Shown here piece after piece: positions 8,912 to 34,793 of a stretch of DNA of 39,319 bases (the stretch's first letter is position 1; each line of letters starts with the position of its first letter). Below the pieces are notes generated by a model. That model saw nothing but the letters and a program-made list of their open reading frames with translations, searched no databases and was not told the DNA's origin. Source of the stretch: Methylobacter sp. Lineage in GTDB: Bacteria > Pseudomonadota > Gammaproteobacteria > Methylococcales > Methylomonadaceae. The position numbers were made by a program, and so were the translations under genes. The DNA lies in NCBI GenBank assembly GCA_004299305.1, contig SCPZ01000140.1, positions 1-39,319 of the forward strand. The letters run 5' to 3'.

Positions 8912-9346
8912 CTACAGCGCAGAATCCAACAAATTCGTAAAAGGTTGGTGATTTTTCCAGCGGTAGGTATGAAAATCGCGTCTGTCTGTAGAAACAATGC
9001 GTCCATGTCCCAGTTCTTCGGCTAATAATACCAACGAAGCATCGGCCAAATCCATTGGTAAGTCGGCGTATTGGGTCATGAGATCGGAGAGTCTAGGTAG
9101 ATGGTTATCCGATAATGAAAATGTAAAAAAATTACCTTGTTGCTGTAACGTTGGTAGAAAAGCTAAAAATTCAAAAGCCAACTGCACATTTTTACGCCGC
9201 ATCAGTAAATGCAAGGTTTCTGTTAACACAGGGAATGTGGTGATCATGGGTTCTCGGCATTGCGTCAAAAATGCTTTGCAGGCAGGATGATAAATATCTT
9301 TACGATCAAACAACCCAAACCAGTAACCACTATCGATAATAATCAT
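8912..9346 (-). CDS. PIN-domain toxin (VapC-like ribonuclease)
   Basis: 144 residues. The start MIIIDSGYWFGLFDR gives the first PIN acidic residue (D5). TFPVLTETLHLL supplies the conserved glutamate, DLADASLVLLAEE the central aspartates, and IVSTDRRDF the last one. PIN toxins are Mg-dependent RNases that cut RNA and are neutralised by a partner. Its start overlaps the upstream gene by 4 nt, the normal toxin-antitoxin arrangement. All catalytic positions look intact. Confidence 0.85.
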   Translation of the reverse strand: MIIIDSGYWFGLFDRKDIYHPACKAFLTQCREPMITTFPVLTETLHLLMRRKNVQLAFEFLAFLPTLQQQGNFFTFSLSDNHLPRLSDLMTQYADLPMDLADASLVLLAEELGHGRIVSTDRRDFHTYRWKNHQPFTNLLDSAL

Positions 9347-9654
9347 TCTGTTGAGCCGTGCTTAAAAGAAAAATCTAATTTTTCTTTATAAGTCGTTGAA
9401 AGTTGTTCATCGGTTTCAATACAACCAATCAAGCCTGCTTGTTCAAAAGCTTGGTAAATCGGCGAAATATCTTTTTTATCGCTTATTTCTTGTTGAGTTT
9501 CTAAGGCGGTTAATTTATTTTTGTGTTTATTGTTTTTTGACAACTTACGCGCTAATTCACTTTGCAAAGATACAACAAAATCCATGACTTTTTGTTGCTC
9601 CTGTTCGGGTAACGTTAAAAGTTGAGCTGTGATTTCTTGAGGCGATAAATTCAT
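9343..9654 (-). CDS. Probable antitoxin of the first PIN toxin pair
   Basis: 103 residues starting MNLSPQEITAQLLTLPEQEQ. The start at 9654 was chosen because AGGAG lies about 8 nt before it; the frame can be extended to 9771 but that part has no protein-like character. The N-terminal helix-rich region followed by a lysine-rich linker and an acidic tail fits a small antitoxin whose C-terminus wraps the toxin. No clear DNA-binding family is visible. The role is inferred from the 4-nt overlap with the PIN gene. Confidence 0.7.
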   Translation of the reverse strand: MNLSPQEITAQLLTLPEQEQQKVMDFVVSLQSELARKLSKNNKHKNKLTALETQQEISDKKDISPIYQAFEQAGLIGCIETDEQLSTTYKEKLDFSFKHGSTE

Positions 9655-9809
9655 TGATTTAACTCCTGTTATAGTTGGCGTACAAATCGTATGGCTAAAT
9701 ACAGTCGCATAGTCCGTATGAAGCTTGTGAAATACAGTATGATTGTAGCCTCGAAGCTTTGAATTCGGCAAACTTCATTCAGGCCGCTTGCTTTGTCCGA
9801 TAGTCTCTT

Positions 9810-9861: not shown

Positions 9862-10965
9862 CTAGGCCAAATAGCCGTAGCGTTTAAGCCGATGGCGCAG
9901 GATATTCCGGCTGATATTGAGCAGGCGTCCCGTTTGCACTTGGTTGTTCTCGCAATACGCATATGCGGTACGGATGATAGCTTCCTCAACTGTTTCAAAC
10001 AGGTTATCGACGGGCTGTTCGTATAAAGCCGCTAACGCATTTTCGAGCGCTTTAAGCGACGACGATCCGGTTGCAATGGCTTGATCGTTGCTGTGCGACA
10101 CCCCGAAATCAGGGTTCAAATGCAGGTCGGCGGCAGTCACCTTACCGTTTTTGCAAATGAGCAAGACATGATGAATCACGTTTTCCAGCTCGCGGATATT
10201 ACCGGGCCAAGCATAGTCGAGTAAAGCGCGCTCGGCATCGGTGCTCAAATCTATGTGGGGGAGCTTCAAGCGATTGCCATAACGTTCCATGAAATGCCAT
10301 ACCAAGGGCAGAATATCGCCTGGGCGTTCGCGTAGCGGCAATAAATTGAGCGCTGCAACATTCAGGCGGTAATATAAATCCTCGCGAAAGCGTCCAGCCT
10401 GGACGGCCGCCGCCAAGTTAATATTGGTCGCCGCGATAAGCCGCACATCAATAGGAATAGCCGTTCTGGAACCGACACGCACCACTTCCCGTTCCTGCAG
10501 GACACGCAGTATTTTGACTTGCGCGGAAAGCGGCAAATCGCCAATTTCATCGAGAAACAAAGTGCCGCCGTTAGCCGCTTCGAACCAGCCGCTACGTGCG
10601 TTTAACGCACCGGTAAACGCGCCTTTCTCATGGCCGAACAATTCGCTTTCCAGTAACGATTCGGAAAATGCGCCGCAGTTTACCGCGATAAAGGGCCCTT
10701 CTTTCCGATGACTCAGTTTATGGACTTGCCGGGCGACCAGTTCTTTGCCGGTGCCGGTTTCGCCAATGATCAACGCGGTCGCATCGCTAGGCGCAATACG
10801 CTCGATATATTCCAGCAGGCGTATCGATGCGGGATCGGTAAAAACCAGCGCCGTTGCCCTGATCGATATGGCATGTGAATCAGGATCGGGCAAGGTAATA
10901 AGCGGCTTGCCGTAGAAGTCGGACGGTCTGTCGTTAATTTTTTTAGAATCCCTGTATTTATCCAT
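9862..10965 (-). CDS. Sigma-54-dependent enhancer-binding protein without a receiver domain
   Basis: 367 residues. The AAA+ core has Walker A GETGTGKE (68-75), the sigma-54 contact loop GAFTGA (115-120) and Walker B LFLDE (136-140). The C-terminus (about 325-367) is a Fis-type helix-turn-helix with [17 protein letters not shown]. Only about 40 residues precede the core, so there is no receiver, GAF or PAS sensor; activity may depend on a partner or on expression level, as with PspF or SfnR. The C-terminal wording reminds me of SfnR, a regulator of organosulfur use, but I cannot confirm that. It is divergent from a gene with a sigma-54 promoter and two enhancer-like repeats, its likely target. 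The ribosome-binding site is weak. Confidence 0.92.
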
Positions 10966-11237: not shown

Positions 11238-11285
11238 TGCTGATATAGCAACATCGAATCAGCATCTATTGCTGATCTAGCAACA
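11238..11285. promoter_or_regulatory. Two enhancer-like direct repeats (upstream activator sites)
   Basis: TGCTGATATAGCAACA at 11238-11253 and TGCTGATCTAGCAACA at 11270-11285 differ at one base and are spaced exactly 32 bp, close to three helical turns. Each is itself dyad-symmetric (TGCT, 5 nt, AGCA). They lie about 53 and 85 nt upstream of the -24 element of a sigma-54 promoter, the usual enhancer position. They are the likely binding sites of the divergent activator at 9862-10965. Confidence 0.65.
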
Positions 11286-11337
11286 GCTATTTGCATTGAA
11301 AAATAAAAAATCACTTATAAATCATAATGTTAATCTT

Positions 11338-11352
11338 TGGCACAAGAAGTGC
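11338..11352 (+). promoter_or_regulatory. Sigma-54 promoter of the first PstS-like gene
   Basis: TGGCACAAGAAGTGC has the -24 GG and -12 GC with the obligatory 10-nt spacing and a perfect TGGCAC block. It lies 83 nt before the start codon at 11436. Confidence 0.8.
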
Positions 11353-11435
11353 GTAACTGAGTTAAGTATCAGGTCTTTGGACTTGTAAGCTGCAAACTTT
11401 TTGAATATTACTCATTGGAACAGAAGGTTTTTATT

Positions 11436-13109
11436 ATGAAAAAATCAAACACACTGGCATTGGCCGTCTCATTGCTGGCAGGTGCGCAAAGCGCTTATGC
11501 TCTGACGCCGTGGGCCAACGGCACCCCCCAAATTACCGTCTATACCTCAGGCGGAGCGGCGCAGGACAAGGCTTACGGCCAGGTTGTCACCACCACGCTG
11601 GCAGCGCCGGGCACTGTAGACACATTTAGTGATGTCGATCCGGCAACCGGGTCGGTGGGTTCGCGCTGGACCGCCTATTATTTCACCGGAAACGCCAATC
11701 TGGGCGCAGGACTGGCCGGTAAGAAAATTCTGCTGGAAAAACGTTCCTACGGCGCAGCAGGCTATGGGGTTGTCCCCTTAGTTGGCAATATAGCTCTGGA
11801 GCACTTGAAAATTACGGGGTTGTCACAAGCGGACTGGGACGTGAACGGTACGCAGCAATGGAAAAAAACCATTGACGGCGCCAATGCCGCGACTTACTTG
11901 GTAAAAACCGTTTCCGACGGTGGTTTTCTTGGCGTTGATCCCGACATCCTGCTGAAACCCGGCACGGAAAATTATCCTACGCCCGTTAACGAACTGTCTA
12001 CCGGGTTGCCTGAGTTCAATTGGCCATTGACATTAAAGCAAGTGCCCAGAACCGGCGCCAATGGATTTACCGTGGTTCCTACCGGCGGATTGGTTTACGG
12101 TGTAGCGGTCACTCAGGATTTATATAAAGTGCTGCAAGCCGCGCAGAAAAGAGCCGGTGCGCTGCCAAGCAGCGTCGTTATCGGCAGTTATGATGAGGCC
12201 AGTCTGCCTAATCTTAACCGCAATGTTCTCGCATCGTTGCTGGCAGGCAAAGTCGGCGCTTGGGATCAAATCAAGATTATCGATAAAACAGACGGCGATA
12301 CCGTAAAAACCTTGCTGGACAGCAGTATTCTTGACGATGCTGGCGTTGCGGAGCCTTACAAGGAATCAACAACCGGCGCTAACCTGACGCCGGTTGCCGT
12401 AGGCAGACGCAATAACGGCGCGGCGATCGGCGCGGTTGCTTATGCCAAGTTTCTCAACTATCCCGGTACGCAAAATGCGTTCCCTCCTGCATCAAAAACG
12501 GTTGATAACGCGGTGGACGAAGACGCCACCTTGCCTATCGTCAAATCACCGGGCGGCGCTTCCGATACCGGGAACCTGCTGAAAGACTGGCAGAACGGCA
12601 CCAACGCCACCGGCTACAACAATGTGGTCGATGGTTTGGGCTACGCTAAACGCTGGGGTATCGCGATCAATAGCGCCGACCGTAACAGCTCGGTTACCGC
12701 AGACGGTACCGGCGGCGATCCTTGGCGTTATATCAGGATAGACGGTTACGCGCCGACCTTGGAAAATGTCGCGGCAGGTGTTTACCCGCACTGGGCGGAA
12801 GGCTCGGTTATTTACCGTACCAAGAAGGCTGGCGATGCTCAATGGGCGGTCAAGACAAAGCTTTTGAAAGCCTTCGCCGACGATTTGGGTAGTCCGACGG
12901 TTGCCAATGCGGTTAACACCACGCAAGCTTGGGGCAAAACCGGTATTTTTGCGACCACGGCAGATCCGCGTGGTTTTACTGCGAGCATTCCTTTCAATAC
13001 CAGCAATCCTGTCGTACCGTTAACGCATAATAACGGCGGTTCTACGCACGCCGATATTGTTCCGGTTATTAATAATGCGGTATCAGACCTTGCTATTCAA
13101 TTGAAATAA
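11436..13109 (+). CDS. Exported PstS-like oxyanion-binding protein, paralogue 1
   Basis: 557 residues. The start at 11436 follows GAAGG at 8 nt. A signal peptide MKKSNTLALAVSLLAGAQSAYA is cut before LTPWANGTPQITVYTSGGAAQ. Features recall type II periplasmic binding proteins of the PstS class: SLLAGKVGAWDQIK resembles the PstS 'G.I..W' segment, and APTLENVAAGVYPHWAEGSVIYR resembles the PstS 'P...NV..G.YP' hinge segment. It is longer than PstS (about 320-350). It lacks a lipobox and has no cysteine near the N-terminus. Paralogue 2 (17521-19194) has the same length and roughly 70% identity by eye. No ABC permease lies nearby. Expression is probably sigma-54 dependent. The fold is inference and the ligand unknown; phosphate, molybdate or sulfonate are all possible. 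Confidence 0.7.
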   Translation: MKKSNTLALAVSLLAGAQSAYALTPWANGTPQITVYTSGGAAQDKAYGQVVTTTLAAPGTVDTFSDVDPATGSVGSRWTAYYFTGNANLGAGLAGKKILLEKRSYGAAGYGVVPLVGNIALEHLKITGLSQADWDVNGTQQWKKTIDGANAATYLVKTVSDGGFLGVDPDILLKPGTENYPTPVNELSTGLPEFNWPLTLKQVPRTGANGFTVVPTGGLVYGVAVTQDLYKVLQAAQKRAGALPSSVVIGSYDEASLPNLNRNVLASLLAGKVGAWDQIKIIDKTDGDTVKTLLDSSILDDAGVAEPYKESTTGANLTPVAVGRRNNGAAIGAVAYAKFLNYPGTQNAFPPASKTVDNAVDEDATLPIVKSPGGASDTGNLLKDWQNGTNATGYNNVVDGLGYAKRWGIAINSADRNSSVTADGTGGDPWRYIRIDGYAPTLENVAAGVYPHWAEGSVIYRTKKAGDAQWAVKTKLLKAFADDLGSPTVANAVNTTQAWGKTGIFATTADPRGFTASIPFNTSNPVVPLTHNNGGSTHADIVPVINNAVSDLAIQLK

Positions 13110-13191
13110 GCCGTGTCGGGTATGTACAGCGTACTTGAGCACTGATTCATATCATCTAGGGCGCGCTCCTTAGTTGGCGTTAGCGATAGGC

Positions 13192-13224
13192 AGACCTTCC
13201 AGGTTTTTAAAACCTGGAAGGTCT
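13192..13224. repeat. 33-bp perfect palindrome, copy 1
   Basis: The arm AGACCTTCCAGGTTTT is followed by one T and its exact inverse complement. An identical copy sits at 34839-34871 with the same flanking GC and TAA. It could act as a bidirectional hairpin after the PstS-like gene; I treat it as a dispersed REP-like element. Confidence 0.75.
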
Positions 13225-13361
13225 AATTTGCAACGTTCTGAATAGGCGGAAGATAATAGTCTGGAAAGGGAACATAGCGACTCTTTTCGATGACCAACTG
13301 TATTGGAAATATTGATACTGCTAGCCGAACGAGGCATGTTGCCCCGTCCCGCGTATAAAAA

Positions 13362-13760
13362 TCACAGGAAATTGACCTGCGACACCTTACCTTCCTGAAT
13401 CGCCTTTTTACAAAACCGCTCGTCAAACGTATAAAAAGGCAGGTTCTGTGTATTGGTTAAATGCAACGCATCAGCAAAATCAGCCCCTAAACGATAACAA
13501 TAAATCGCATTTATAAGGGCTTGTTCATTCTCACAAATAATCTGATTTTTCTGTACCAACAATACGAAAAAGTCAGCTATTTCGACTACAGAACGTTTAT
13601 AACGTGAACGCAAAACCCATTCAATTTCAAGCTGTACCGTTCGGCTGATAAAAAACCGATGTTCTGTTAGCGAAGCGATAACTTTTTGATATTGCGTTTC
13701 ATCATCCCTCATGGCTAGGCGAATAATAATATTGGTATCAACAGCAATAACCACGCTCAT
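13362..13760 (-). CDS. PIN-domain toxin (VapC-like), second pair
   Basis: 132 residues. The start VIAVDTNIIIRLAMRDD carries the first PIN aspartate, RTVQLEIEWVLRSRY the glutamate, and GADFADALHLTNTQ and FYTFDERFCKKA the remaining acidic residues. It is a predicted Mg-dependent RNase toxin. It overlaps its antitoxin gene by 4 nt. It differs in sequence from the toxin at 8912-9346, so the two pairs were probably acquired separately. Confidence 0.88.
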   Translation of the reverse strand: MSVVIAVDTNIIIRLAMRDDETQYQKVIASLTEHRFFISRTVQLEIEWVLRSRYKRSVVEIADFFVLLVQKNQIICENEQALINAIYCYRLGADFADALHLTNTQNLPFYTFDERFCKKAIQEGKVSQVNFL

Positions 13761-13999
13761 TCCTCGTTGAAATCAACAGGCTTACAAAGTTCTTCGGTTG
13801 TCAATACAATCGAATTATCTTTAAAAAAACCGCCCAAATCAGAAATGTCATTGCTTTTTTGATCATGCGCCGGACGTAAAACAACGGTATCACCAATGCA
13901 AAACATTTCTAATTTGGAATGCCCCTTCCATGTATTAATCTGTAGAATTTCTGCCGGTAAGGTTATTTGTCCTTGTGGGGAAATAGATAAGGTTGTCAT
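13757..13999 (-). CDS. AbrB/SpoVT-type antitoxin, second pair
   Basis: 80 residues. The N-terminal LSISPQGQITLPAEILQINTWKGHSKLEMFCIGDTVVLRP is the swapped-hairpin AbrB (MazE/VapB) DNA-binding domain. The acidic tail from about residue 50 is the expected toxin-binding part. It represses its own operon in known pairs. It lies directly upstream of the PIN gene with a 4-nt overlap. Confidence 0.88.
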   Translation of the reverse strand: MTTLSISPQGQITLPAEILQINTWKGHSKLEMFCIGDTVVLRPAHDQKSNDISDLGGFFKDNSIVLTTEELCKPVDFNEE

Positions 14000-14072
14000 T
14001 TTTTACTCCGATGTGTAACGTCTATGTGGATTCTTTTGAGCTACTACGCTTGCCGGTTTTGACTCGATTAAA

Positions 14073-14203
14073 CTAAGGAACGAGCATGAAATAAAGTGGA
14101 CAACTGTGTGCAGCAGGAGTGCAAGCTTTGCTTGCGCATGCAGGCGAAGCCTGCACTCCGACTATTGGCAACTTGCCTAAGTTATTCCATGCTCATTCCT
14201 AAG
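14073..14203. repeat. Nested inverted-repeat element (MITE-like)
   Basis: Outer arms at 14073-14094 and 14182-14203 are inverted copies with 3 mismatches in 22 (core GAGCATG). Inside, GGAGTGCA and TGCACTCC form an inner palindrome around 14116-14158. This outer-arm plus inner-palindrome plan resembles the elements at 1950 and 31663. CCGGTTTT occurs on both sides (14053, 14214) but not flush with the arms. The intergenic space 14000-14298 otherwise holds nothing recognisable. Confidence 0.5.
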
Positions 14204-14298
14204 GGTAAATCCACCGGTTTTAAATCGTTCAGGCGACATCCAGGCCATTATAGGCGTGGTGCTATTTGAGTAAAGGGATGATTAATCTCGAATATACA

Positions 14299-15417
14299 TT
14301 ACGCATAATGCGGCATATGCCTATGGCTGGCAACATCAGCGTCAACCATTAAAAAATGCATGGAATGGGTTTTAATCAGGCAATAAATCGTGTCATTTTC
14401 GTGTATATCAAGGCTTGCAAACGCTCTTAGCGTAATCTCAACCGTTAGTGTTGCGCCTGCATCCACTTGCACGAGAACGCGATCTAAACGCGGAATAATG
14501 GCGCAGACCCGTCCTTTAATCTGATTCTGAATGGATATGCCCTGTAGCAAATGCGTGGATAGCGCAATATCCTGCGAACGCAAGCCGACATAATAGGTTT
14601 TTCCACGAACTGCGCGCGGCGTATAGGGTAATACCAGGCGTATTCCGAAAAACATCGCGATAGTGCAACCATAAGCGGGGGCATGTTCCAGTACGTTGAT
14701 GGGTAGAATGTTATCAATCGGGGGACCGCCTGCAAATTCAAGAAGATGTTGGTTAGGGACGATTTGTTGCAGAAAATCCGCCGCCAGCACCTTGCCGTCC
14801 GCCATTAAAATCAAAAAATCAGTTAACCGTAACGCCTCGTCCAGTATGGCTGAGCTGTGGAGTATGCCGATATGATGCTTTTCATGGGCATAGCGAAGAA
14901 AACAGTTAATTTGCATCTTAAGATTGTCATCCAGGGACGATAGTGCATCGTCCAGTAACAAAAGGCGCGGAGCCGCCAATAACGATCGACCGAGCAGGAT
15001 GCGCTGTTTTTCACTGCCGGAAAGATGTTGTGCGCGAAAATCAAGTAAATGTTCAAGTTTTAAAAGATCGACAATGGTAGCAAAATCAAACCGTTGCGGC
15101 CTTATGGCCTGTTTGCTGTAAGCTGTTAACAGATTTTCCCGAACGGTTTTGTCAGCGTCCAGTTGAATATCCTGGGAAACCAGGGCGATAGCTGGATGAT
15201 TAAGCAAGTGATTGATGTTGTTCCGGCTGTCGAACAAGGTTTCCTTATCCAGGGAAATGCGTCCTTCATCCGGTTTAAGCCGTCCGGCCAGCATCGACAT
15301 CAGGCAGGATTTACCGCAACCGGACAAGCCAAAAATGCCGGCATTGATATGGTTCAATTTAAACTTGAGACTGATGGGTAAACGGCCTTGCGAAAATTTT
15401 ATATCAACGTCTAACAT
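14299..15417 (-). CDS. ModC-like ABC ATPase with altered catalytic motifs, orphan
   Basis: 372 residues with the start at 15417, where GGAG lies about 7 nt before ATG and the protein begins like ModC (MLDVDIKFSQG). The frame extends to 15516 without a ribosome-binding site. Walker A GLSGCGKS is at 30-37. The signature is LSGS (132-135) instead of LSGG. Walker B reads LLLLDDALSSLD, so the catalytic glutamate is aspartate (D157) and the usual proline is alanine. The H-loop histidine is present (GILHSS). The C-terminal third has the TOBE/Mop-like oxyanion-binding region, as in ModC. ModC normally powers the ModAB molybdate importer, but no modA or modB is nearby. The ATPase may be slow or regulatory. 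It is divergent from modE with a ModE-box-like site between them. Confidence 0.82.
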   Translation of the reverse strand: MLDVDIKFSQGRLPISLKFKLNHINAGIFGLSGCGKSCLMSMLAGRLKPDEGRISLDKETLFDSRNNINHLLNHPAIALVSQDIQLDADKTVRENLLTAYSKQAIRPQRFDFATIVDLLKLEHLLDFRAQHLSGSEKQRILLGRSLLAAPRLLLLDDALSSLDDNLKMQINCFLRYAHEKHHIGILHSSAILDEALRLTDFLILMADGKVLAADFLQQIVPNQHLLEFAGGPPIDNILPINVLEHAPAYGCTIAMFFGIRLVLPYTPRAVRGKTYYVGLRSQDIALSTHLLQGISIQNQIKGRVCAIIPRLDRVLVQVDAGATLTVEITLRAFASLDIHENDTIYCLIKTHSMHFLMVDADVASHRHMPHYA

Positions 15418-15534
15418 GCGTTTCTCCGGTAAGCGGCCAGACCAGGTCATACGATAGGGCGAAGAGAAGCTTAACTTGTCTAATCCGTCTCGTTGCAGTT
15501 TGGCGATTTGTATCATTTAGTGGCGAGGTTTAGC

Positions 15535-15549
15535 GCAATGGGTATGCCT
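15535..15549 (-). promoter_or_regulatory. Weak sigma-54-like promoter before the modC-like gene
   Basis: On the minus strand, AGGCATACCCATTGC has the -24 GG and a TTGC -12 with 10-nt spacing, but the first T of TGGCAC is A. It would give a leader of about 105 nt. Listed only because two strong sigma-54 promoters serve the neighbouring genes. Confidence 0.25.
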
Positions 15550-15603
15550 CTGGCGAATCCCGTTGCCGTAGCGGTTTCAAAAGCAGCAGGCTTGCTTTTT
15601 ATT

Positions 15604-15627
15604 CGCTATATAGTTTAGTATATAATT
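15604..15627. promoter_or_regulatory. ModE-box-like palindrome between modC and modE
   Basis: CGCTATATA, 6 nt, TATATAATT. The E. coli modA operator, as I recall it, has the same 9-6-9 layout with CGTTATATT and TACATAACG half-sites. The core, including the GTTT of the spacer, is nearly identical to a site at 17395-17418. It is placed to control both divergent genes. Confidence 0.65.
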
Positions 15628-15761
15628 AAAGCTAGCGGCCAAACAAGTAACTATCGAATTTAAAATATGCGATAGCCCGGATAAGGTTTTTACCACGCCC
15701 AATGGAGATGGCGGTGGTCGGCATCGTTCTCCCGTTCTTGAATAAAGTGGTTCAGGGTAGT

Positions 15762-15792
15762 ATGGTTGTACCTTAGTTCACTATATAACCAT
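15762..15792. promoter_or_regulatory. Inverted repeat near the modE start
   Basis: ATGGTTGTA and TATAACCAT are inverted copies matching at 8 of 9 positions, 50-80 nt before the modE start. The right arm contains a ModE-like half-site, TATATAACC. It could be an autoregulatory site or overlap the modE promoter. Confidence 0.3.
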
Positions 15793-15841
15793 CTTGATTT
15801 ATAGGGTTGTGAATGGTTCAACACGCAGGCGGGGAGGGAGT

Positions 15842-16678
15842 ATGAATTCACTATTGCAGGGCACTGAGGTGTCGACAAAGGATAAGTCCTTACAACCGGT
15901 ACTGGTAGAAGGCGATATACGTTTGATAGGTGGTTTGGGGGAGCGGCTGTTTCGGCTGCTCGCGGCTATTGACAGCACCGGTTCCATTAACCAGGCCGCC
16001 AAGAATGTCGGCTTGACCTACAAGGGCGCCTGGGAAATGATTGAGCGCGCCAATAATTTATCGCCAAAGCTGCTGGTTTCCACCGCAATTGGCGGTCGTA
16101 CCGGGGGCGGAACCCGGCTGACACCGGCAGGTAAGAGCATTCTGCAATTATTTATCCAAATTCAGGAAGAACATAATCAGTTTATGGAACAAATCAACCA
16201 ACGCCTGGCTAGCAACCAGGATATTGTCTTTTTATTTAAGGGGTTAATCATGAAAGCAAGTGCGCGTAATCAATTTTCCGGGAAAGTGACCGATGTTGCT
16301 ATCGGCGCTGTTAATGCCACTGTTGTGGTGGGCTTGAAGGGCGGGGAAAATATCGTCGCCACTATCACTAAAGAATCAGTTGAGTCGCTAGGTATTAAAA
16401 ATGGCGTGGATGTCATAGCTCTGGTCAAGGCTCCGCAAATAATCGTCATAACGGATTTCGGCGGTTATCGCATTTCCGCCCGGAATCAGTTAAAAGGCGT
16501 GGTTTCGCGCGTCCAAAAGGGTGCGGTTAATTCGGAAGTTGTTATTGAGCTGACCGGCGGCGACTCGGTAACGGCGACGGTAACCAATGACAGTATCGAA
16601 ACATTGAACCTGTCGCCGGGCAATCCGGCTACCGCCGTATTTAAAGCGGGGTCGGTCATTCTTGGGGTGGCTTCCTAG
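15842..16678 (+). CDS. modE: ModE-type molybdate-responsive regulator with two Mop domains
   Basis: 278 residues; the start at 15842 follows a strong GGAGG. The N-terminal winged helix-turn-helix (about 20-110) carries LLAAIDSTGSINQAAKNVGLTYKGAWEMIERANNL and GGRTGGGTRLTPAGK, the ModE hallmarks. Two Mop/TOBE repeats follow: SARNQFSGKVTDVAIGAVNATVVVGL and SARNQLKGVVSRVQKGAVNSEVVIEL. These bind molybdate or tungstate at the dimer interface. With molybdate bound, ModE dimers bind AT-rich palindromes and usually repress uptake genes. All regions appear intact. Likely targets in this window are the site before itself and the modC-like gene, and the one before the second PstS-like gene. Confidence 0.93.
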   Translation: MNSLLQGTEVSTKDKSLQPVLVEGDIRLIGGLGERLFRLLAAIDSTGSINQAAKNVGLTYKGAWEMIERANNLSPKLLVSTAIGGRTGGGTRLTPAGKSILQLFIQIQEEHNQFMEQINQRLASNQDIVFLFKGLIMKASARNQFSGKVTDVAIGAVNATVVVGLKGGENIVATITKESVESLGIKNGVDVIALVKAPQIIVITDFGGYRISARNQLKGVVSRVQKGAVNSEVVIELTGGDSVTATVTNDSIETLNLSPGNPATAVFKAGSVILGVAS

Positions 16679-16752
16679 ACAATAAGTTCTATAGATCTAA
16701 AGGATTTCCATGGCCGCGTTGGGTATGGAAATCCGAAACGTTTTGCATTGAT

Positions 16753-17184
16753 TTATTCCGGCCAAAACTCAGGATTCATAATCTGATCGAAATTCCAGGG
16801 ACAAGATTCAGGAAACACATTCAATATTCCGGTTTCGTTCTCTGCAAGACGTGCGGCATCGGCCCAAGACTCTGACCAAAAATCAGGGTTTTCAAGGTCT
16901 GGTTTTAAACTGGGGGTTTTGTTGAGTCTGCGTATAATCATGGTGCGCCGGTCTTTGATGGTTCGTTCCCAGCTCTTGCCGCGATGACTAGGCTGATATT
17001 GCCATTTGATTAAGTGCGCAAGCAACACAGCCATTCTGTTTTCAAATTCGCGTTGTTCGCTCTTACCCACGTCTTCAATCTCATCCGCAATATGTTCAAG
17101 GTCGAGCAAATCAAAGCGGCCGGAACGGATAAACGCCGCCTGTTCATTCGCCCATGCTATTGCGTCAGTTTCGTAGCTTTGCAT
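16753..17184 (-). CDS. DUF29-family protein
   Basis: 143 residues starting MQSYETDAIAWANEQAAFIRSGRFDLLDLEHIADEIEDVG, the conserved opening of DUF29 proteins. SEQREFENRMAVLLAHLIKWQYQP and SWERTIKDRR follow. The start at 17184 is an ATG with GAGG about 10 nt upstream; a TTG 24 nt earlier is also in frame. The function of DUF29 is not known. It often occurs as a scattered single gene in cyanobacteria and proteobacteria, including beside mobile DNA. Helical, cytosolic, with no catalytic motif I can name. Confidence 0.85.
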   Translation of the reverse strand: MQSYETDAIAWANEQAAFIRSGRFDLLDLEHIADEIEDVGKSEQREFENRMAVLLAHLIKWQYQPSHRGKSWERTIKDRRTMIIRRLNKTPSLKPDLENPDFWSESWADAARLAENETGILNVFPESCPWNFDQIMNPEFWPE

Positions 17185-17334
17185 CAATAATGCCCTCGTG
17201 TGTCCCAATAGAGTTTAGGCCTTTGCAAAATACCATCTGACCGCACATAAAACAATCCTATTGAGACGCTAAAACTGTCTCATGGCTACTGTATTAATTA
17301 GTCATGCCTGTGTTATGTCGGTTTCACGATAATT

Positions 17335-17350
17335 TGTCACATTACATACA
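17335..17350 (+). promoter_or_regulatory. NifA-like upstream activator sequence candidate
   Basis: TGTCACATTACATACA matches TGT-N10-ACA exactly and lies about 110 nt upstream of the predicted transcription start of the second PstS-like gene, the usual enhancer distance. The pattern is short and can occur by chance in 300 nt, so the call is weak. Confidence 0.3.
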
Positions 17351-17394
17351 CAGCAAAAACTTCGGGGTGGTTGGCTAATGCTTGCTTTATCGTT

Positions 17395-17418
17395 GTTTAT
17401 ATAGTTTGATATATAACG
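17395..17418. promoter_or_regulatory. ModE-box-like palindrome at the second PstS-like gene
   Basis: GTTTATATA, 6 nt, TATATAACG, with an upstream CGTT at 17391. It shares TATATAGTTT and TATATAA with the site at 15604-15627. It ends 8 nt before the -24 element of the sigma-54 promoter, so bound ModE could hinder the holoenzyme or block DNA looping by the activator. Confidence 0.65.
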
Positions 17419-17426
17419 TATGCGGT

Positions 17427-17442
17427 TGGCATCATAGCTGCA
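17427..17442 (+). promoter_or_regulatory. Sigma-54 promoter of the second PstS-like gene
   Basis: TGGCATCATAGCTGCA has -24 GG and -12 GC with 10-nt spacing. It lies 80 nt before the start codon, nearly the same as the 83 nt at the paralogue's promoter (11338-11352). Confidence 0.72.
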
Positions 17443-17520
17443 TTACAAACTACGTTACCGGCCTGAGCTTGTAACCTGTATTCAACATCGCGTTTTATTA
17501 ATTTTCGAAGGAAGGCTTAG

Positions 17521-19194
17521 ATGAAAAAATCAAACACACTCGCCGCAGCCATTGCACTGTTAATCGGTTCTCAAGCCGCTAATGCGCTGACGCCTTGGGC
17601 TGATGGCGCACCGAATATAACGATCTACGTATCGGGCGCTGTGGCGCAAACTAAAGCCTATAGCCAAGTTGTCAGCAGCGCCTTGGCATCGGCCAATAGC
17701 GTAGACACATTCAACGATGTCGATCCGGTTACCGGGTCGGTCGGTTCGCGTTGGACGGCCCATTACTTTACCGGAAATACTGCGCTGGGCAGCGGACTTG
17801 CGGGTAAGAAAATCCTGTTGGTACGGCGTACTGCCGGAGGCTCGGGCTATGGCGTTATTCCACTGATCAGCGATATTCCGCTGGAACATCTTAATATCGC
17901 AGGATTGCCCGCCACGGCTTGGCTTGCCGACGGCACGCAGGCATGGAAACAAACTATCGGCGCGGATAATGCCTCTACCTACCTGACTAAGAAAATTTCC
18001 GACGGCGGTATGATCGCCGTTGACCCGAATATCATCCTAAAACCCGGCACCACAAATTACCCCGATCAACAGCCCGAGTTGATGACCGGCGCGCCTGAAC
18101 CCGACTGGCCATTGAACCTGACTTCGGTGCAAAGCAGTAAAAACAAATTCACCGTGTTGCCTACCGGAGGATTGGTTTACGGCGTAGCGGTCACGCTGGA
18201 TTTGTATAAAGTGCTGCAAGCCGCGCAAAAAAGAGCCGGATCGCTAGCCGAAAGTGTCGTTATCGGTAATTACGGTGAAACGGATATGCCTAACCTCAAT
18301 CGCAACATCGTGGCATCGCTGCTGGCAGGCAAGATCGGCGCTTGGGACCAGATCAAGATCGTCGATAAAACCGACGGCGATACCGTTAAGAGTTTAGTGG
18401 ACAGTAGTATTCTGGCCGATGCCGGTGTGTCCGCGCCTTATAAAGAATCAACGACCGGTTCGAATCTAACGCCGGTAGCCTTGGCTTTAAGGAATAACGG
18501 AGCGGCGACCAGCGTCATTGCTTACTCGGTATTTCTCAATTATCCAGGCACTAAAAATGCGTTCGCACCGGCGGACAAAACAGCCGATAACGCCGTGGAT
18601 GAAGACGCCTCAATGCCTATCGTCAAAGAGCCGATTATTATTTCCGATACCGGAACGCTGCTTAAAGACTGGCAGAACGGCACCAACGTTCTTAGTTTCA
18701 ACAACGTTGTCGATGGTTTAGGCTTTGCCAAACGCTGGGGTATAGCGATTAACACTGCCGATAAAAATAATACCGTTACCGCCACCGGTACCGGCGGCGA
18801 TCCTTGGCGTTATATCAAAATCGACGGTTATGCGCCGACCTTGGAAAACGTTTCGGCAGGCGTTTATTCTTACTGGGCGGAAGGAGCAGTGCTTTACCGC
18901 GCCAATAAAGCCGGTGATTCTCAGTGGGCGCTGAAGACCAAACTGATGAAAACCTTAGCCGACAGCTTGGGCAGCCCGGCGATAGCAGGGACGGTTAATA
19001 CCACCCAAGCCTGGGGCAAAACCGGCACCTTTGCGACCACAGCCGATCCGCGCGGATTCACGGCAAGCATCCCGTTTAATCCCAGCAATCCTGTCGTGCC
19101 TTTCTCGCATAAAAATAACGGCGTCGTACATACCGAAATTGTGCCTGTTGCCGATGGGGCTGCGACCGGCGGTCTTGCGGTTCAGTTGAAATAG
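17521..19194 (+). CDS. Exported PstS-like oxyanion-binding protein, paralogue 2
   Basis: 557 residues starting MKKSNTLAAAIALLIGSQAANA, a signal peptide, with mature LTPWADGAPNITIYVSGAVAQ. It aligns end to end with paralogue 1 (11436-13109). The most conserved blocks are DVDP.TGSVGSRWTA.YFTGN, PTGGLVYGVAVT.DLYKVLQAAQKRAG, LLAGK.GAWDQIKI.DKTDGDTVK, LKDWQNGTN and TGGDPWRYI.IDGYAPTLENV. The central and C-terminal blocks are those that recall PstS. AAGGA lies before the ATG. The preceding ModE-like box and sigma-54 promoter suggest expression tied to Mo or W status. It could be a soluble periplasmic scavenger or, with the TPS/TonB block next door, a secreted or surface-exposed one; neither is shown. 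Confidence 0.7.
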   Translation: MKKSNTLAAAIALLIGSQAANALTPWADGAPNITIYVSGAVAQTKAYSQVVSSALASANSVDTFNDVDPVTGSVGSRWTAHYFTGNTALGSGLAGKKILLVRRTAGGSGYGVIPLISDIPLEHLNIAGLPATAWLADGTQAWKQTIGADNASTYLTKKISDGGMIAVDPNIILKPGTTNYPDQQPELMTGAPEPDWPLNLTSVQSSKNKFTVLPTGGLVYGVAVTLDLYKVLQAAQKRAGSLAESVVIGNYGETDMPNLNRNIVASLLAGKIGAWDQIKIVDKTDGDTVKSLVDSSILADAGVSAPYKESTTGSNLTPVALALRNNGAATSVIAYSVFLNYPGTKNAFAPADKTADNAVDEDASMPIVKEPIIISDTGTLLKDWQNGTNVLSFNNVVDGLGFAKRWGIAINTADKNNTVTATGTGGDPWRYIKIDGYAPTLENVSAGVYSYWAEGAVLYRANKAGDSQWALKTKLMKTLADSLGSPAIAGTVNTTQAWGKTGTFATTADPRGFTASIPFNPSNPVVPFSHKNNGVVHTEIVPVADGAATGGLAVQLK

Positions 19195-19467: not shown

Positions 19468-21057
19468 ATGGATACATTAGAACGGCACACCTTGATCGCG
19501 TTGATCGTGTTGGGTTTTTCGACACCCTTAGCGGCGCAACAACAAGCGGAAGCTCAACCCAACTTCGATCTGCTGGAAATGCAGGTCGACGGCAATACCG
19601 TGCTGGATCAGCAACTGGTTGAAAAAACGCTGTACCCGTTTTTGGGCGCCGGTAAAACGGTCGACGATGTGGAAAAGGCCAGGCAAACTTTGGAAGCCGT
19701 ATACAAGGAAAAAGGTTATCCGACGGTTCTGGTGGATATTCCCGAACAGGATGTCGTCGAGGGCTTGGTGCACCTGAAAGTGGTTGAAGGCGCTATAGAG
19801 CGGCTTAAAATTACCGGGTCCCGCTATTTTTACCTGGGTAAAATCCGGGATAAAGTACCGGCGCTTGCGGCGGGTCAAGTTCCTTTTATGCCGAACGTGC
19901 AAGAACAGGTCGGCGAGTTGGGCAAGGAATCGTCCGACCGTCAGGTAACGCCTATTTTCCGCGCCGGATCCACCCCAGGAAAAACCGAAGTGGAGCTGCG
20001 CGTCAAAGACGACTTGCCCTTGCACGGCAGCCTGGAAATGAATGGGCGCAACTCGGAAAATACTTCCCGTACCCGCTTGATTGGTTCTGTTCGTTACGAC
20101 AATTTATGGCAAAGCTTCCATAGCGCATCGTTGCAATACCAGGTCTCGCCGGAAAACGTTGACGAAGTCGAGGTCTGGTCCGGCACTTATGTATTGCCTA
20201 CCGGCTGGGCGAATACGCGTCTTGCGATGTACGGCATCGGCATCAATTCCAATACCCAGTTAGGCGCCAGCATCGGCGGTTTATCCGTGGTCGGTACCGG
20301 TGCGATTTACGGGGCGCGCTTAATAAAACCTTTGTCGGGCCTTAACGCTTACAGCCACAGCCTGAGCCTCGGTTTCGACTACAAAAGCTTTAATCAGGGC
20401 ATTAGCCGGTCGGGACAGGATCAACAAACTTCGCCGATTAGTTACGTCCCGTTCCAGATCGGCTACGACGGCAGTTGGCGCTATCCCGGCGTGACCACAT
20501 CGCTGAGCTCGGCTATCCATTTCTCGGTCAGCGGCATCGGCAACGATCAGCAGGAATTCGAGAACCGGCGCTTTAAAGCAAAAGCCGGGTACGCTTATTT
20601 CACCACCGAACTCAAACATTTGCGCGAACTGCCTTGGGATTTGCGTTTTGCAGGCCGTGCGTCCGGGCAAGTAGCCGACTCGCCGCTGATCAGTAACGAA
20701 CAGTTTGCCGTAGGCGGTCAACAAAGCGTGCGCGGCTATCACCAAACCCAGCAATTGGGCGACAACGGCGTCAACCTGTCGGTAGAACTGCAAAGTCCGT
20801 CGCTGAAACCGCAGGATTGGGATTTCGCTCAAAACCTGCGTGGGCATGTTTTCTTCGATTACGCCTATTTGTGGATTCAGGATGCATTGCCGCTTAATCC
20901 GACCGATTACCTGCTCGCCGGTACCGGTGCGGGCTTGCGGATGCAGTTTTTTAAACATTGGTTAGGTGAATTCGACTGGGCTTATCCGCTGTATCGGCAA
21001 GGTACGGTCGATGTAGGCAATCAACGTATCGACTTCCGGTTAGCTTATGAGTTTTAA
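19468..21057 (+). CDS. Two-partner secretion outer-membrane transporter (TpsB, ShlB/FhaC family)
   Basis: 529 residues. After a signal peptide ending PLAAQ come two POTRA regions, the first clear (about 30-110: FDLLEMQVDGNTVLDQQLVEKTLYPF and VVEGLVHLKVVEGAIERLKITGSRYF). A 16-strand barrel follows with SVRGYHQTQQLGDNGVNLSVEL, the VRGY motif on the lid loop that enters the pore. It ends in a C-terminal strand FRLAYEF. TpsB proteins export one large beta-helical TpsA partner, here the next gene, which overlaps by 11 nt. The ribosome-binding site is weak. A palindromic operator shared with cysK and fadL lies upstream. Confidence 0.93.
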   Translation: MDTLERHTLIALIVLGFSTPLAAQQQAEAQPNFDLLEMQVDGNTVLDQQLVEKTLYPFLGAGKTVDDVEKARQTLEAVYKEKGYPTVLVDIPEQDVVEGLVHLKVVEGAIERLKITGSRYFYLGKIRDKVPALAAGQVPFMPNVQEQVGELGKESSDRQVTPIFRAGSTPGKTEVELRVKDDLPLHGSLEMNGRNSENTSRTRLIGSVRYDNLWQSFHSASLQYQVSPENVDEVEVWSGTYVLPTGWANTRLAMYGIGINSNTQLGASIGGLSVVGTGAIYGARLIKPLSGLNAYSHSLSLGFDYKSFNQGISRSGQDQQTSPISYVPFQIGYDGSWRYPGVTTSLSSAIHFSVSGIGNDQQEFENRRFKAKAGYAYFTTELKHLRELPWDLRFAGRASGQVADSPLISNEQFAVGGQQSVRGYHQTQQLGDNGVNLSVELQSPSLKPQDWDFAQNLRGHVFFDYAYLWIQDALPLNPTDYLLAGTGAGLRMQFFKHWLGEFDWAYPLYRQGTVDVGNQRIDFRLAYEF

Positions 21058-24000
21058 CAGAAAAGGTACGCGCAACGTACCCTACCTATTTATGAACCGC
21101 ATAGGCTACGCTGTGCGTACCATTAACCTGATTGCAGGCGGTGTGGTGATGAGCGCCGCTGCGCCGCAAGCACGCGCCGAATTGCCGGTGCCTTCAAATC
21201 CGGTCGCACTGTCGAACGCGCCTGTCGATATAGCCAGCCAAGGCCAAGCCAGCGCTACGGTTTCCGGCAACGCAATGACCATTACCCAAGGCACCGACAA
21301 AGCCAGCATAGACTGGCAAAGCTTTAATGTCGGCGTGGAAAACAGCGTGCGTTTCGAGCAACCGTCATCGACAGCGGTGGCCTTGAACAACATCCACCAA
21401 GCCGATCCCAGCCGGATCATGGGCTCGTTGACCGCTAACGGCCAAGTCTATCTAGTTAACCAGAACGGTTTTGTATTCGGCCAGAATTCGCAAATCAATG
21501 TCAACTCGCTGGTAGCCACCACGCTGGGCATTAGCGAAACCGTATTCCAAAACGGCATCACCAAGGCATTCGACAATAACGGCGATGCGTCTTTACAAGG
21601 CAACGGCGAAGTTTATCTTAAAGATACGCAAGGCAACTTCGTGTTGGACCAGCACGGCGCCAAAATCAAAATCCAGATATTCATCGAGCAGGGCGCCAAC
21701 ATCAAAACCAACGCTCCGGGCGGTCGTGTCATTATCGCCGCTCCTGTGGTCAACAACGCCGGAACCATAGAAACGCCGGACGGGCAAACGATACTCGCGG
21801 CGGCCAAAGACAAGGTTTATTTGCAGGAAGCGGGTAGCGATTCTGATATACGCGGTTTACTGGTAGAAGTCGGCACCGGCGGCGAAACCAATAATGTCGG
21901 CAAAGTGCTGGCCGAGCGCGGCAACGCCAGTTTGATGGGTTTTGCAGTCAACCAGCAGGGCATCGCTTCGGCGACGACTTCGGTCAGCCTGAACGGTTCG
22001 GTCAGGCTGCTTGCCAGAGAGGGCATACAAGACCCATCAGGAACCGGCGGCAAACTATTGCCCAAGTCCACGGTCAGGAGCGTCGATCTCGATGACGGTC
22101 TGGGCACTCAAGCCGCCGTGCATCTGGCCAGTGGTAGTTCGACTGGCGTCGATTTGGATGCGGATAAAGCCGCTACGGCGATTGATGCTCAAGCGCAAAA
22201 CCGCTCACAAATCGAAATCAGCGGGCATGATGTTTATTTGCACGATAAATCCACGGTGCAGGCAAAATCCGGCAATATCGCGATAACTGCTGTCGATAAT
22301 CCCGCCGACAGCAGCGAAAAAGGCGATGCACGGATTTTTATGGAATCAGGTAGCGTAATTGATGCGTCAGGCGTCAAAGACGTGCAACTGCCGATGGAGC
22401 GCAATGTGGTCAAGGTCGAACTGCGCAAGAACGAGCTCAAAGATGCGCCGTTACAGCGCGACGGCGTACTCTACGGCCAAACGGTTTCGGTTGATATTCG
22501 CGATGCGGCGCTGACTTATGATGCCGACGGTAAGTTGAGCAGCGCCAAGATACCGGTAGCGGACATCAAGGGTGCGGTAGATCGTATTGCCCGTAATATC
22601 GACGAGCGCAGCACTTCCGGCGGAACGGTTAAGCTGAAATCCAGCGGCGATGTGCTTAGTCAGTCCGGCAGCGTCATCGATTTTTCCGGCGGCTCGGTGG
22701 CCTATCAGGCTGGCGCTATCGAAACCACCAAGCTGCTTGCCGATGGACAAATTTACGATATTTCAGCAGCCGATGCCGACCGCCATTACGACAGCATTTT
22801 GGGCTTGATTACCGACAATCACCCGCTTTGGGGCGTTAGCGAAAGCTGGACTATTCCAGGTCTAGGCGTTAAACGTTTTGAAACCGCTTATACCGAAGGC
22901 AAGGCGGGCGGCACGTTAAATATTACCGCTTACGAAACCCGGCTGAACGGCTCGCTAAATGGCGCAACCCTTGCCGGAACCTTGCAGAGAACGACTGAGC
23001 AACGTGCGCCGGGCAGCACACTGGCGATTGATTTAAACAACAATGCCTTGCTTAGCAAACAGGATGTCGTCTTTAGTAAGGATGCGGCTTTGATTAATCA
23101 AGGCTTCGACCAAGGTTTCGATGAAGCCTTGCCGAGAAAAGGCGACGATTCGACCGAGGCGGCGGCGCTGGCTATCGATTCCGGCTTATTCAAACGTTCC
23201 GGTATTACTAACGTCAGCATCAAAACCAACGGAGCTATCGCTTTGCAACAAGAGGCGAGTTTGGATTTGCCGGTTGACGGCAGTTTGAACCTGTCGTCTA
23301 GCGGTTACGATATACAGGGTTCGATTATTGCACCGTCCGGTCAGGTCAACCTGAAACCGGTCAACATAGCCGATACGCTGTTGCCCGCAGCCGTTACGCT
23401 GGGCAGTTCTGCGGTGATTGATGTCTCGGGGCTTTGGCTTAACGATGCGCTGGACAGCCGACAAGGTAATGCTTTAGGCGCTGTCGCAAACGACGGCGGC
23501 AGTGTTACGCTGGTTGCCGAGCAAGGCGACTTGCGGCTCGAACCGGGCAGCCGCATCAATGCCGATGGCGGCGCTTGGCTGGATAACCAATCCCGTATCA
23601 GCGCCGGACAAGGCGGCAGCATCAGCCTGACCGCTGCGACACACGATGGCGGCGGCGCGTCTTCCAGCCTGATAGTCGATGGCGAGCTTTCAGCATGGGC
23701 CATCGCACAGGGCGGCGCTTTAAAGCTCAGCAGCAGCGAAGTGATTATCGGCTCCGCAAGCGATGCGCCGCTACGGACGGACTCAACCACTTCGACAAGC
23801 TCAGGACAGGCCGCTTCGACAAGCTCAGGACAGGCCATTACGCCGCTGATCTTGAACCCGGATTTCTTCCAACAAGGCGGTTTTGCCGATTACCGCATCG
23901 ATTCGAATCTTTATGGCCTGAAAGTGGCCGACAAGGTCCAGCTTAAACTGTTGCAAAACAATTTGGCCTTGAACAGCTCAGTAGCTACACAAGCCTCCGG

Positions 24001-33711: not shown

Positions 33712-34112
33712 AAGTCGGAGAAGAAGGCAAGGTTTACGACGACATCAACATAACGCCGATGCTGGATGTGGCTTATGTGCTGCTGCTTATTTTTATCATC
33801 ATGACCACCGCGACGGTTCAGGGCATTACTGTGAACCTGCCTAAGGCGAGCAGCACACCGGCTTTGTCCAAACCCAAGACCAAGGCGATCTCTATCACCA
33901 AGGACGGCACGATTTACCTGGATACCTACCCGATCTCGTTAGCCGACCTGGAAACCCGCCTGGGCCAATATAAGGCGGCCACGCCGGATCTGCCGGTGGT
34001 GGTGAAAGCCGATGCGGCGGTCCAGTATGAAAAAGTCATCGAAGTGCTGGATGTGGTTACGCGCCTGGAAATAAGCCAGTTAGGTCTTGTGACCCAGAAG
34101 CTGGTCAAGTAG
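33708..34112 (+). CDS. exbD: ExbD/TolR-type biopolymer transport protein
   Basis: 134 residues. A short cytoplasmic N-terminus with INITPMLDVAYVLLLIFIIMTT contains the single membrane helix and the essential proton-binding aspartate D20. A periplasmic domain follows, with AISITKDGTIYLDTYPISLADLE and VVVKADAAVQYEKVIEVLDVV, the standard ExbD fold. The start overlaps the exbB stop (ATGA). It ends 6 nt before tonB, so the three are one operon. Confidence 0.95.
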   Translation: MKVGEEGKVYDDINITPMLDVAYVLLLIFIIMTTATVQGITVNLPKASSTPALSKPKTKAISITKDGTIYLDTYPISLADLETRLGQYKAATPDLPVVVKADAAVQYEKVIEVLDVVTRLEISQLGLVTQKLVK

Positions 34113-34118
34113 GCGCTT

Positions 34119-34793
34119 ATGGATAAATACAAACGCTGGCTGCGCAACCTGCCGTTGTTGATCGGCATTGTTTTGACACTGGTCATCGCGGTAGCGGTGT
34201 ATTTTCTTCAGGACATGTTCCAAAAACCGGCGCAGGCCAAAAAGCAGGTTCAGCAGATCACGATGATACAACCGCCGCCTCCGCCACCCCCTCCGCCGCC
34301 TCCACCTGAGCAAAAACCGCCGGAACCCGAGCCGGAAAAACTGCCGGAGCCGGAACCCGAAAAAGAACCGGAACCGGCGCCGGAAGAGGCTGAAGAACCT
34401 GCCGGTGAAGAGTTGGGCGTGGATGCCGACGGCGGCGCAGGATCGGACGGCTTCGGGCTGATCGGCAAGAAAGGCGGTCGGGGATTATTGGGCGGTAGCG
34501 GCGGCAGCGCGATTCTCTGGTACGGCGGCCAGGTCAAGCGTGGTCTTGAAGAAGCGCTGCAAAACGAACTGGCGGACAGTAGCGCCCGGAAAGCCGCTTA
34601 TACCGTGCAGCTGAATATCTGGATAGCGCCTGACGGTAGCGTTAGTCGTGCCGAGCTGTCGGGTTCCAGCGGCAAGCCCGATGTCGATCAGGCTATTCGT
34701 GCGGCATTGCCGAAGGTGCGCTTTTCGGTGTCGAAACCGCCGCCGGAGAATATGCCGCAACCGTTGAGGATTCGGGTGACGTCGAGAAATTGA
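34119..34793 (+). CDS. tonB: TonB-family energy transducer
   Basis: 224 residues. The N-terminal membrane anchor is at about 12-30 (LPLLIGIVLTLVIAVAVYF). A run of 12 prolines follows, then Pro-Glu-Lys repeats (about 53-95) that span the periplasm, and a Gly-rich linker. The C-terminal TonB domain contains YTVQLNIWIAPDGSVSRAELSGSSGKPDVDQAIRAALPKVRFS. It should deliver proton-motive energy to an outer-membrane protein. No TonB-dependent receptor lies in the window; the nearest outer-membrane partners are the TpsB transporter and the porin. Confidence 0.95.
   Translation: MDKYKRWLRNLPLLIGIVLTLVIAVAVYFLQDMFQKPAQAKKQVQQITMIQPPPPPPPPPPPPEQKPPEPEPEKLPEPEPEKEPEPAPEEAEEPAGEELGVDADGGAGSDGFGLIGKKGGRGLLGGSGGSAILWYGGQVKRGLEEALQNELADSSARKAAYTVQLNIWIAPDGSVSRAELSGSSGKPDVDQAIRAALPKVRFSVSKPPPENMPQPLRIRVTSRN

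Follow-up and report, generated by a model that had tools for sequence, protein, structure and literature searches.

The DNA analysed here (the window: a 39-kb stretch of 39,319 nucleotides, contig C20 of the 4.49-Mb genome of a Methylobacter sp.) encodes two exported PstS-like proteins of 557 amino acids, PAR1 (11436-13109, +; + and − stand for forward and reverse strand) and PAR2 (17521-19194, +), which share 70% identity. The best explanation of the whole, whose chances we regard as evenly poised, is that the molybdenum (Mo) nitrogenase is supplied by PAR2 and the genes downstream of it, which would capture molybdate at the outer membrane or beyond. PAR1 and PAR2 are apparently split between two sigma-54 circuits. 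An earlier note on this DNA had described the two paralogues as flanking a sigma-54 activator, a ModC-like ATPase and ModE. All of these are present, but the activator gene (9862-10965, −), divergent from PAR1, sits outside the pair on the upstream side of PAR1, and the interval between PAR1 and PAR2 holds a PIN/MazE-like pair, the modC-like gene, modE and a DUF29 gene. L-, G- and C-numbers denote loci from the compared genomes, genomes and contigs, respectively.

Both paralogues are preceded by sigma-54 promoters. Within the window TTGGCAY-N6-TGC is found at two places, 11337-11352 (+) and 17426-17441 (+), which are the -24/-12 elements of PAR1 and PAR2; shuffled windows held 0.27 copies on average and two copies were seen in 1 of 100 shuffles. 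The distance from -12 to the ATG is 83 nt for PAR1 and 79 nt for PAR2, so that the promoters proposed earlier stand and, of the distances then given (83 and 80 nt), the second is corrected. We compared the upstream regions of 11 PAR2-type and 12 to 14 PAR1-type genes, counts that exclude L061 and L062, which are fragments, and L064-L066, which duplicate named loci. A TGGCAT-type -24/-12 element lies 75-86 nt from the start in 9 of the 11 PAR2-type regions.

The ModE-like boxes reported earlier proved to be the only places in the genome with an exact TATATA-N6-TATATA core: one between the modC-like gene and modE (box 15605-15626, core 15607-15624) and one at PAR2 (box 17396-17417, core 17398-17415), 8 bp upstream of the -24/-12 element. 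The reversed pattern, run as a control, had no match. At up to two mismatches the pattern was not enriched (159 places vs 198 in the control), so that only near-exact sites are meaningful. The PAR2 box matches 15 of 16 half-site letters, which 0 of 200 shuffles equalled, and all 11 PAR2-type regions carry such a box (12-15 of 16 letters, a match equalled by 0 to 3 of 200 shuffles). The box stands between the enhancer site and the promoter, and its spacing is nearly constant. A box beyond shuffles was found in 0 of 14 PAR1-type regions. A 22-letter pattern built from the PAR2 boxes gave 11 sites at up to one mismatch in ten related genomes: eight of them fall in PAR2 promoters, a ninth about 400 nt ahead of PAR2 in G001, and the remaining two stand beside a modC-like gene in G065 and elsewhere in G064. 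Because the pattern was drawn from the PAR2 boxes, their top rank is partly circular, and at up to three mismatches the counts were close to those of the control. Twelve further box regions outside the earlier loci were read (11 around sites with up to two mismatches, one with three); in six of them modE/modC, modABC, modBC, a modA-like or a modC-like gene stands beside the site. In a tree of 38 family members, whose bootstrap is not fully settled, the 11 box-bearing rows fall on one side of a branch with 100/100 support, and 0 of 500 label shuffles were as clustered.

The modE gene (15842-16678, +) encodes an N-terminal winged helix-turn-helix (HTH) and two C-terminal Mop/TOBE domains (PF03459, 112 bits; TIGR00638, 141.8 bits over a cut-off of 55). 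HTH_1 scored 26.0 bits against a cut-off of 26.6 in one search and 28.7 in another, and the protein remained under the equivalog and domain cut-offs of PRK10676 (160.5 of 369) and TIGR00637 (89.9 of 98.5). The orphan ModC-like ABC ATPase with its TOBE domain (14299-15516, −; PF00005, PF03459) scored 226.9 bits with TIGR02142, short of the cut-off of 285.05. The presence of Asp where the Walker B Glu is usual (LLLLDDALSSLD; the same in L166) suggests slow or no hydrolysis. The earlier statement that modA, modB and a permease are missing is right for the window but not for the genome, whose modABC lies on C42. As a separate observation, nifA, a ModE-like site and modABC stand side by side in L171 (G065:C43) of Methylovulum sp. 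STC_68.

For NifA sites we used the consensus TGT-N10-ACA. It lies 110-112 bp before the -24 in 8 of 11 PAR2 promoters and in 0 of 12 PAR1 promoters. At this place the window has a degenerate site (17316-17331, +; TGTCGGTTTCACGATA, 111 bp upstream of the PAR2 -24), and at the aligned position 8 of 10 orthologues have an exact TGT-N10-ACA; in the window an exact site follows 92 bp upstream of the -24 (17335-17350, +), and sites at -92/-93 occur in 4 of 11 PAR2 loci, the window included. As a positive control we examined 19 nifH loci, 17 of them with a readable promoter: 13 of the 17 have TGT-N10-ACA 110-115 bp before the -24, that of the own nifH being at -112, and the remaining four either lack it or have it at -84 or -121. 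An excerpt of PMC3916325 prints the consensus as TGT-N10-TCA. Because PAR2-type regions carry a ModE-like box plus a NifA-type site, the PAR2 activator is likely to be NifA and not the neighbouring sigma-54 activator. NifA scored over cut-off in 9 of 9 genomes searched, on C117 in the own genome, where nifH lies on C50. A nifH over cut-off is present in 10 of 11 PAR2 genomes (the one without is a metagenome-assembled genome of low coverage; L041, G063) and in 19 of the 26 genomes searched overall. Since each of the 19 has a single such match, Mo nitrogenase is probably their sole nitrogenase.

The upstream sites of PAR1 point to another circuit. The activator encoded at 9862-10965 has an AAA+ domain (PF00158, 238 bits) and a Fis-type HTH (PF02954), with no sensor domain found and no domain before residue 42. 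It was rejected as a NifA: it scored 329.4 bits with TIGR01817 against a cut-off of 528.85, and no GAF domain was found. A homologue adjoins PAR1 in 10 of 16 PAR1-type loci, the window included. The palindrome ATCAGCA-N5-TGCTGAT at 11258-11276, 80 bp upstream of the PAR1 -24, is the only exact copy in the genome and a candidate enhancer site of this activator. Its form beats shuffles in 9 of 14 PAR1 regions (at most 5 of 100 as good) and does no better than shuffles in the other five (L051, L053, L056, L057, L058); among the 8 of 14 loci in which the distance to the promoter was taken, it stands 79-81 bp before the -24 in seven. At up to two mismatches it occurs at 48 places per strand in the genome vs 9 for the reversed control. 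Elsewhere the genome has four copies with one mismatch, none of them followed by a convincing sigma-54 site; one has a poor match (6 of 12) at 94 bp. TpsB, the transporter gene described below, has a related form, ATCARCA-N5-TGYTGAT, upstream in 6 of 11 loci (a count that leaves out L048), in each case 80-91 bp before a sigma-54 element; all six are among the eight that follow PAR2. The TpsB promoters of the window, L044, L053, L058 and L059 show no such palindrome paired with a sigma-54 site. By these sites, PAR1 is most likely the target of the neighbouring activator, as is TpsB in relatives. As the driver of PAR2 it was set aside, the palindrome being missing in 11 of 11 PAR2-type regions (the best forms match 8-10 of 14 letters, a level that 26 to 100 of 100 shuffles reach). 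The single ModE/sigma-54 regulon of both paralogues proposed earlier was likewise abandoned: the upstream sites differ, the conserved ModE-like box belongs to PAR2 only, and many PAR1 regions have the palindrome instead. Both assignments, the activator to PAR1 and NifA to PAR2, are proposed because of these upstream sites.

Downstream of PAR2 lie TpsB, a ShlB/FhaC-type transporter (19468-21057, +; PF03865, POTRA domain PF08479), and TpsA, a filamentous-haemagglutinin-like exoprotein of 3515 residues (21047-31594, +; PF05860, PF12545). With POTRA and ShlB domains in the one, a TPS domain in the other and their genes adjacent, they form a two-partner secretion (TPS) pair. They are followed by an ExbB-type channel with DUF2341 and LamG domains (31816-33711, +; PF01618, PF10102, PF13385), ExbD (33708-34112, +; PF02472, 100.4 bits), a protein with a TonB C-terminal domain (34119-34793, +; PF13103), a Porin_5 family protein (34910-36703, +; PF16930, 618 bits) and a 232-residue protein with a weak ZapB-like stretch (36716-37414, +), homologues of which adjoin the porin in L049 and L071. 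The TPS and ExbB-ExbD-TonB-porin genes, the distant modABC and the nitrogenase context go beyond the earlier note. A TpsB homologue follows PAR2 in 9 of the 9 loci that are long enough, as a split gene in L048; L054 and L060 are contig ends and stand outside this count. TPS genes are found in 14 of 20 PAR stretches of the own genome and its relatives (without: L065, L066, L070, L072, L074, L082) and in 11 of 14 from other Gammaproteobacteria (without: L206, L212, L216); in the latter 14, BLAST found no mod gene. This linkage, the commonest feature of the PAR family, and the size and type of TpsA favour the most serious rival explanation, in which PAR2, delivered together with the TPS exoprotein, would belong to the surface or matrix and serve in aggregation or in protection from oxygen while nitrogen is fixed; NifA and ModE would then report nitrogenase production, and the PstS fold would have been reused with no role in Mo uptake. 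We consider it rather unlikely, in view of the related ModE-like boxes that often mark Mo transport genes in relatives and of PAR members that sit in mod clusters, one of them with a Porin_O_P gene.

These mod-cluster members are a second tie of the PAR family to Mo, in one lineage only. In G039 and G054, which belong to one genus, a remote PAR member lies near modA, modB, modC and modE. In G054 the PAR gene stands behind a Porin_O_P gene transcribed divergently from the mod genes; the porin and the PAR gene are each preceded by a ModE-like box, equalled by 2 and 0 of 300 shuffles, respectively. An insertion sequence transposase lies between in G039, where the box is weaker (12 of 300). The G054 stretch (L072, 2634-12087) comprises modE-, modC-, modB- and two modA-type genes divergent from the Porin_O_P, PAR-family and PKD-domain genes.

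The PstS likeness claimed earlier is borne out by the predicted structure of PAR2, a type II periplasmic binding protein (PBP-II) fold of PstS type with phosphate-binding proteins as nearest folds, and not the unrelated fold that had been named as speaking against it; the family searches did not reproduce it, PAR1 and PAR2 matching 0 Pfam and 0 NCBIfam families up to E 0.1. The ModA model TIGR01256 matched neither paralogue (its single match in the genome is on C42), and PDB sequence searches with PAR2 and with two profiles gave nothing significant. A profile alignment of PAR to the genome's PstS reached only a C-terminal stretch, so the correspondence of their motifs is drawn from motifs and fold. 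Most of the remote PAR members retain the phosphate-type motifs GxSD and RxxGSGT, which we take to resemble the phosphate contacts of PstS. In PAR1 and PAR2 these are altered (SD to IA/LG and similar, GSGT to GAA[TIV]), with loss of the SD pair and of the GSG serine, and the mod-cluster members of G039 and G054 keep SD and have GAST in place of GSGT. A PAR2 pocket without a carboxylate acceptor might suit a fully ionised dianion such as molybdate, an argument we put cautiously because the sequence alignment to PstS is weak. The nearest folds and the motifs kept in remote relatives would also fit a PAR2 that binds another oxyanion (phosphate, sulfate, vanadate or tungstate), ModE control being secondary; with these motifs changed in PAR1 and PAR2 and with PAR2 cis-elements of Mo and nif type, we judge this improbable. 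The family is present in 17 of the 274 genomes searched in the class, the own genome counted; a third copy in the latter (C14, 31% identity) has its own TpsB homologue beside it. Homologues in Methylomonas and Methylomagnum gave a lead towards plasmids. Of the PAR2 carriers with a name, the closest are assemblies of Methylobacter and Methylovulum, and cultured carriers include Methylovulum miyakonense HT12, M. psychrotolerans Sph1 and Methylocucumis oryzae Sn10-6.

Molybdate capture by PAR2 would then proceed as follows. When fixed nitrogen is short, NifA would bind TGT-N10-ACA and drive the PAR2 sigma-54 promoter; when Mo is plentiful, ModE-molybdate would bind the box just upstream of the -24 and block it. 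The PAR2 product, exported and of PstS fold, with a pocket that has moved away from phosphate-type residues, would work with the two-partner-secreted exoprotein and the porin module energised by ExbBD-TonB, and ModABC would move the anion across the inner membrane. PAR1, its paralogue, would answer to a sigma-54 activator of its own, and in several relatives this activator seems to drive TpsB as well. The conserved cis-elements and gene order are well supported. Control of PAR2 by NifA and ModE is probable on the strength of its sites, repression as the sign of ModE action and molybdate capture could go either way, and a surface machine that includes the TPS and porin proteins is proposed tentatively.

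Several observations weigh against this model. The own modABC has no strong ModE-like box in the 12 kb read (best 12 of 16), and seven own-genome stretches around modA and weak sites contained modABC and no strong box. A box precedes modE in only three of six modE loci (the window, L043 and L044, not L039, L047 and L054), which is odd for a classic Mo repressor. Two PAR2-type regions, L048 and L060, have no clear -24/-12 at the expected place and no enhancer site. The site at -111 in the window deviates from the consensus by one mismatch (TGT-N10-ATA), and 34 of 176 control upstream stretches (200 bp each) contain TGT-N10-ACA at some position, as do 4 of 12 PAR1 regions elsewhere than at -110 to -112; the NifA-site argument is therefore carried by position and conservation. 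Co-occurrence with nifH is context and lends weak support, since many relatives fix nitrogen. PAR2 and TpsB, possibly co-transcribed, are separated by a gap of 273 nt, in which a terminator scan found none (weak evidence). Three PAR1-type loci (L053 and the Nitrosomonas loci L058 and L059) are also followed by TpsB and TpsA, and most PAR-family loci are TPS-linked without any mod gene. Phosphate, sulfate and tungstate are alternatives to molybdate as the putative PAR2 ligand. Finally, ModE can also activate, as it does at some E. coli promoters. An activating ModE-molybdate, acting as an architectural aid so that the genes are on at sufficient Mo for its handling or storage and not for scavenging, would suit a DNA-bending protein bound at near-fixed spacing between enhancer site and promoter, but it is very unlikely, as a dimer bound 8 bp from the -24/-12 would more likely hinder polymerase and the closest analogue, morAB, is repressed according to an excerpt of PMC6925177. 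The earlier interpretation as a whole is partly supported: control by sigma-54 and ModE agrees with the sites conserved across species at PAR2 and not with those of PAR1, and the oxyanion binding and scavenger role it had assigned to the proteins may hold.

Molybdate is usually thought to diffuse through general porins and, to our knowledge, the acquisition of Mo across the outer membrane by diazotrophs of Mo-poor habitats is poorly known. In the open-licence literature we found no account of this locus or of a TPS-linked PstS-like Mo system. The control logic predicted here from sites resembles that of the Mo-uptake-type genes morAB and morC of R. capsulatus: in the part of PMC6925177 consulted, morAB is activated by NifA/RpoN and repressed by Mo via Mo-boxes by the ModE-like MopA/MopB, and a mor deletion had no effect on Mo-nitrogenase activity under the conditions tested. 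Those genes encode ModA/B/C-like transporter parts, whereas the window has a PstS-fold exported protein, TPS and a TonB-porin set. In P. aeruginosa, as excerpted from a review (PMC8602904), ModA is secreted by the H2 type VI secretion system (H2-T6SS) for molybdate capture with IcmP, likewise a molybdate-binding protein outside the inner membrane with an outer-membrane partner, features that for PAR2 are putative; ModA, type VI secretion and Anr control stand there against the PstS fold, TPS and NifA- and ModE-type sites here. From PstS and DING proteins PAR differs by its 557 residues with large insertions, the missing PstS family match and the altered pocket motifs, and from PstS systems by the lack of a pst permease beside the PAR genes. 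The window's ModE shares HTH and two Mop domains with ModE of E. coli and A. vinelandii; it differs from these, as does the ModC-like ATPase, in scores below the equivalog cut-offs, and the strongest boxes are at the modE/modC-like genes and PAR2, not at modABC. According to an excerpt of PMC9542535, Mo represses vnfA1 and anfA in A. vinelandii by way of two ModE paralogues, and anfA has an RpoN promoter. With FhaB/FhaC the TPS pair shares the TPS secretion, ShlB and POTRA_2 domains, and differs in its linkage to a binding-protein gene and an ExbB-ExbD-TonB-porin module. A new high-affinity molybdate acquisition system, made of a PstS-fold protein at or outside the outer membrane, a giant TPS exoprotein and a TonB-energised porin, switched by NifA and Mo shortage in methanotrophs with one nifH over cut-off, is a possibility we advance with reserve. 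If it were true, methane-oxidising nitrogen fixers would own a dedicated, nif-controlled Mo capture system, and a large uncharacterised family of TPS-linked PstS-like proteins would gain a first function, with cultured carriers as a handle.

Other features of the neighbourhood were recorded. Upstream of PAR2 in four Methylovulum/Methylobacter loci (L038, L039, L040, L043) stand genes for a MauG/CCP-like di-haem protein and a small exported protein; the latter has a weak Oxidored_molyb match and occurs in L044 too. The same two neighbours (L081, 10542-12622) adjoin a remote PAR in G060, and in G001 a second ModE-like site precedes the gene of a small exported Oxidored_molyb-like protein. An Rfam search of the window gave no match. 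Two PIN-domain genes, each with a small neighbour, flank the PAR1 region (8912-9771 and 13362-13999) and are probable toxin-antitoxin modules. Inside tpsA, 23787-23834 holds two tandem 24-nt copies of a CTTCGACAAGCTCAGG-type repeat, which we take to resemble a widespread short mobile repeat. The porin module has a chromate transporter family gene at its far end (37520-38893; PF02417), a homologue of which (76% identity) is found near PAR1 and the activator in L046. The segment 2327-7282 encodes a Family 2A encapsulin (SrpI-like, PF19307), a class V aminotransferase, presumably of cysteine-desulfurase type, a PALP enzyme and a hexapeptide transferase; we take it to resemble the known sulfur-storing encapsulin cluster, and in G001 the encapsulin cluster adjoins PAR1.

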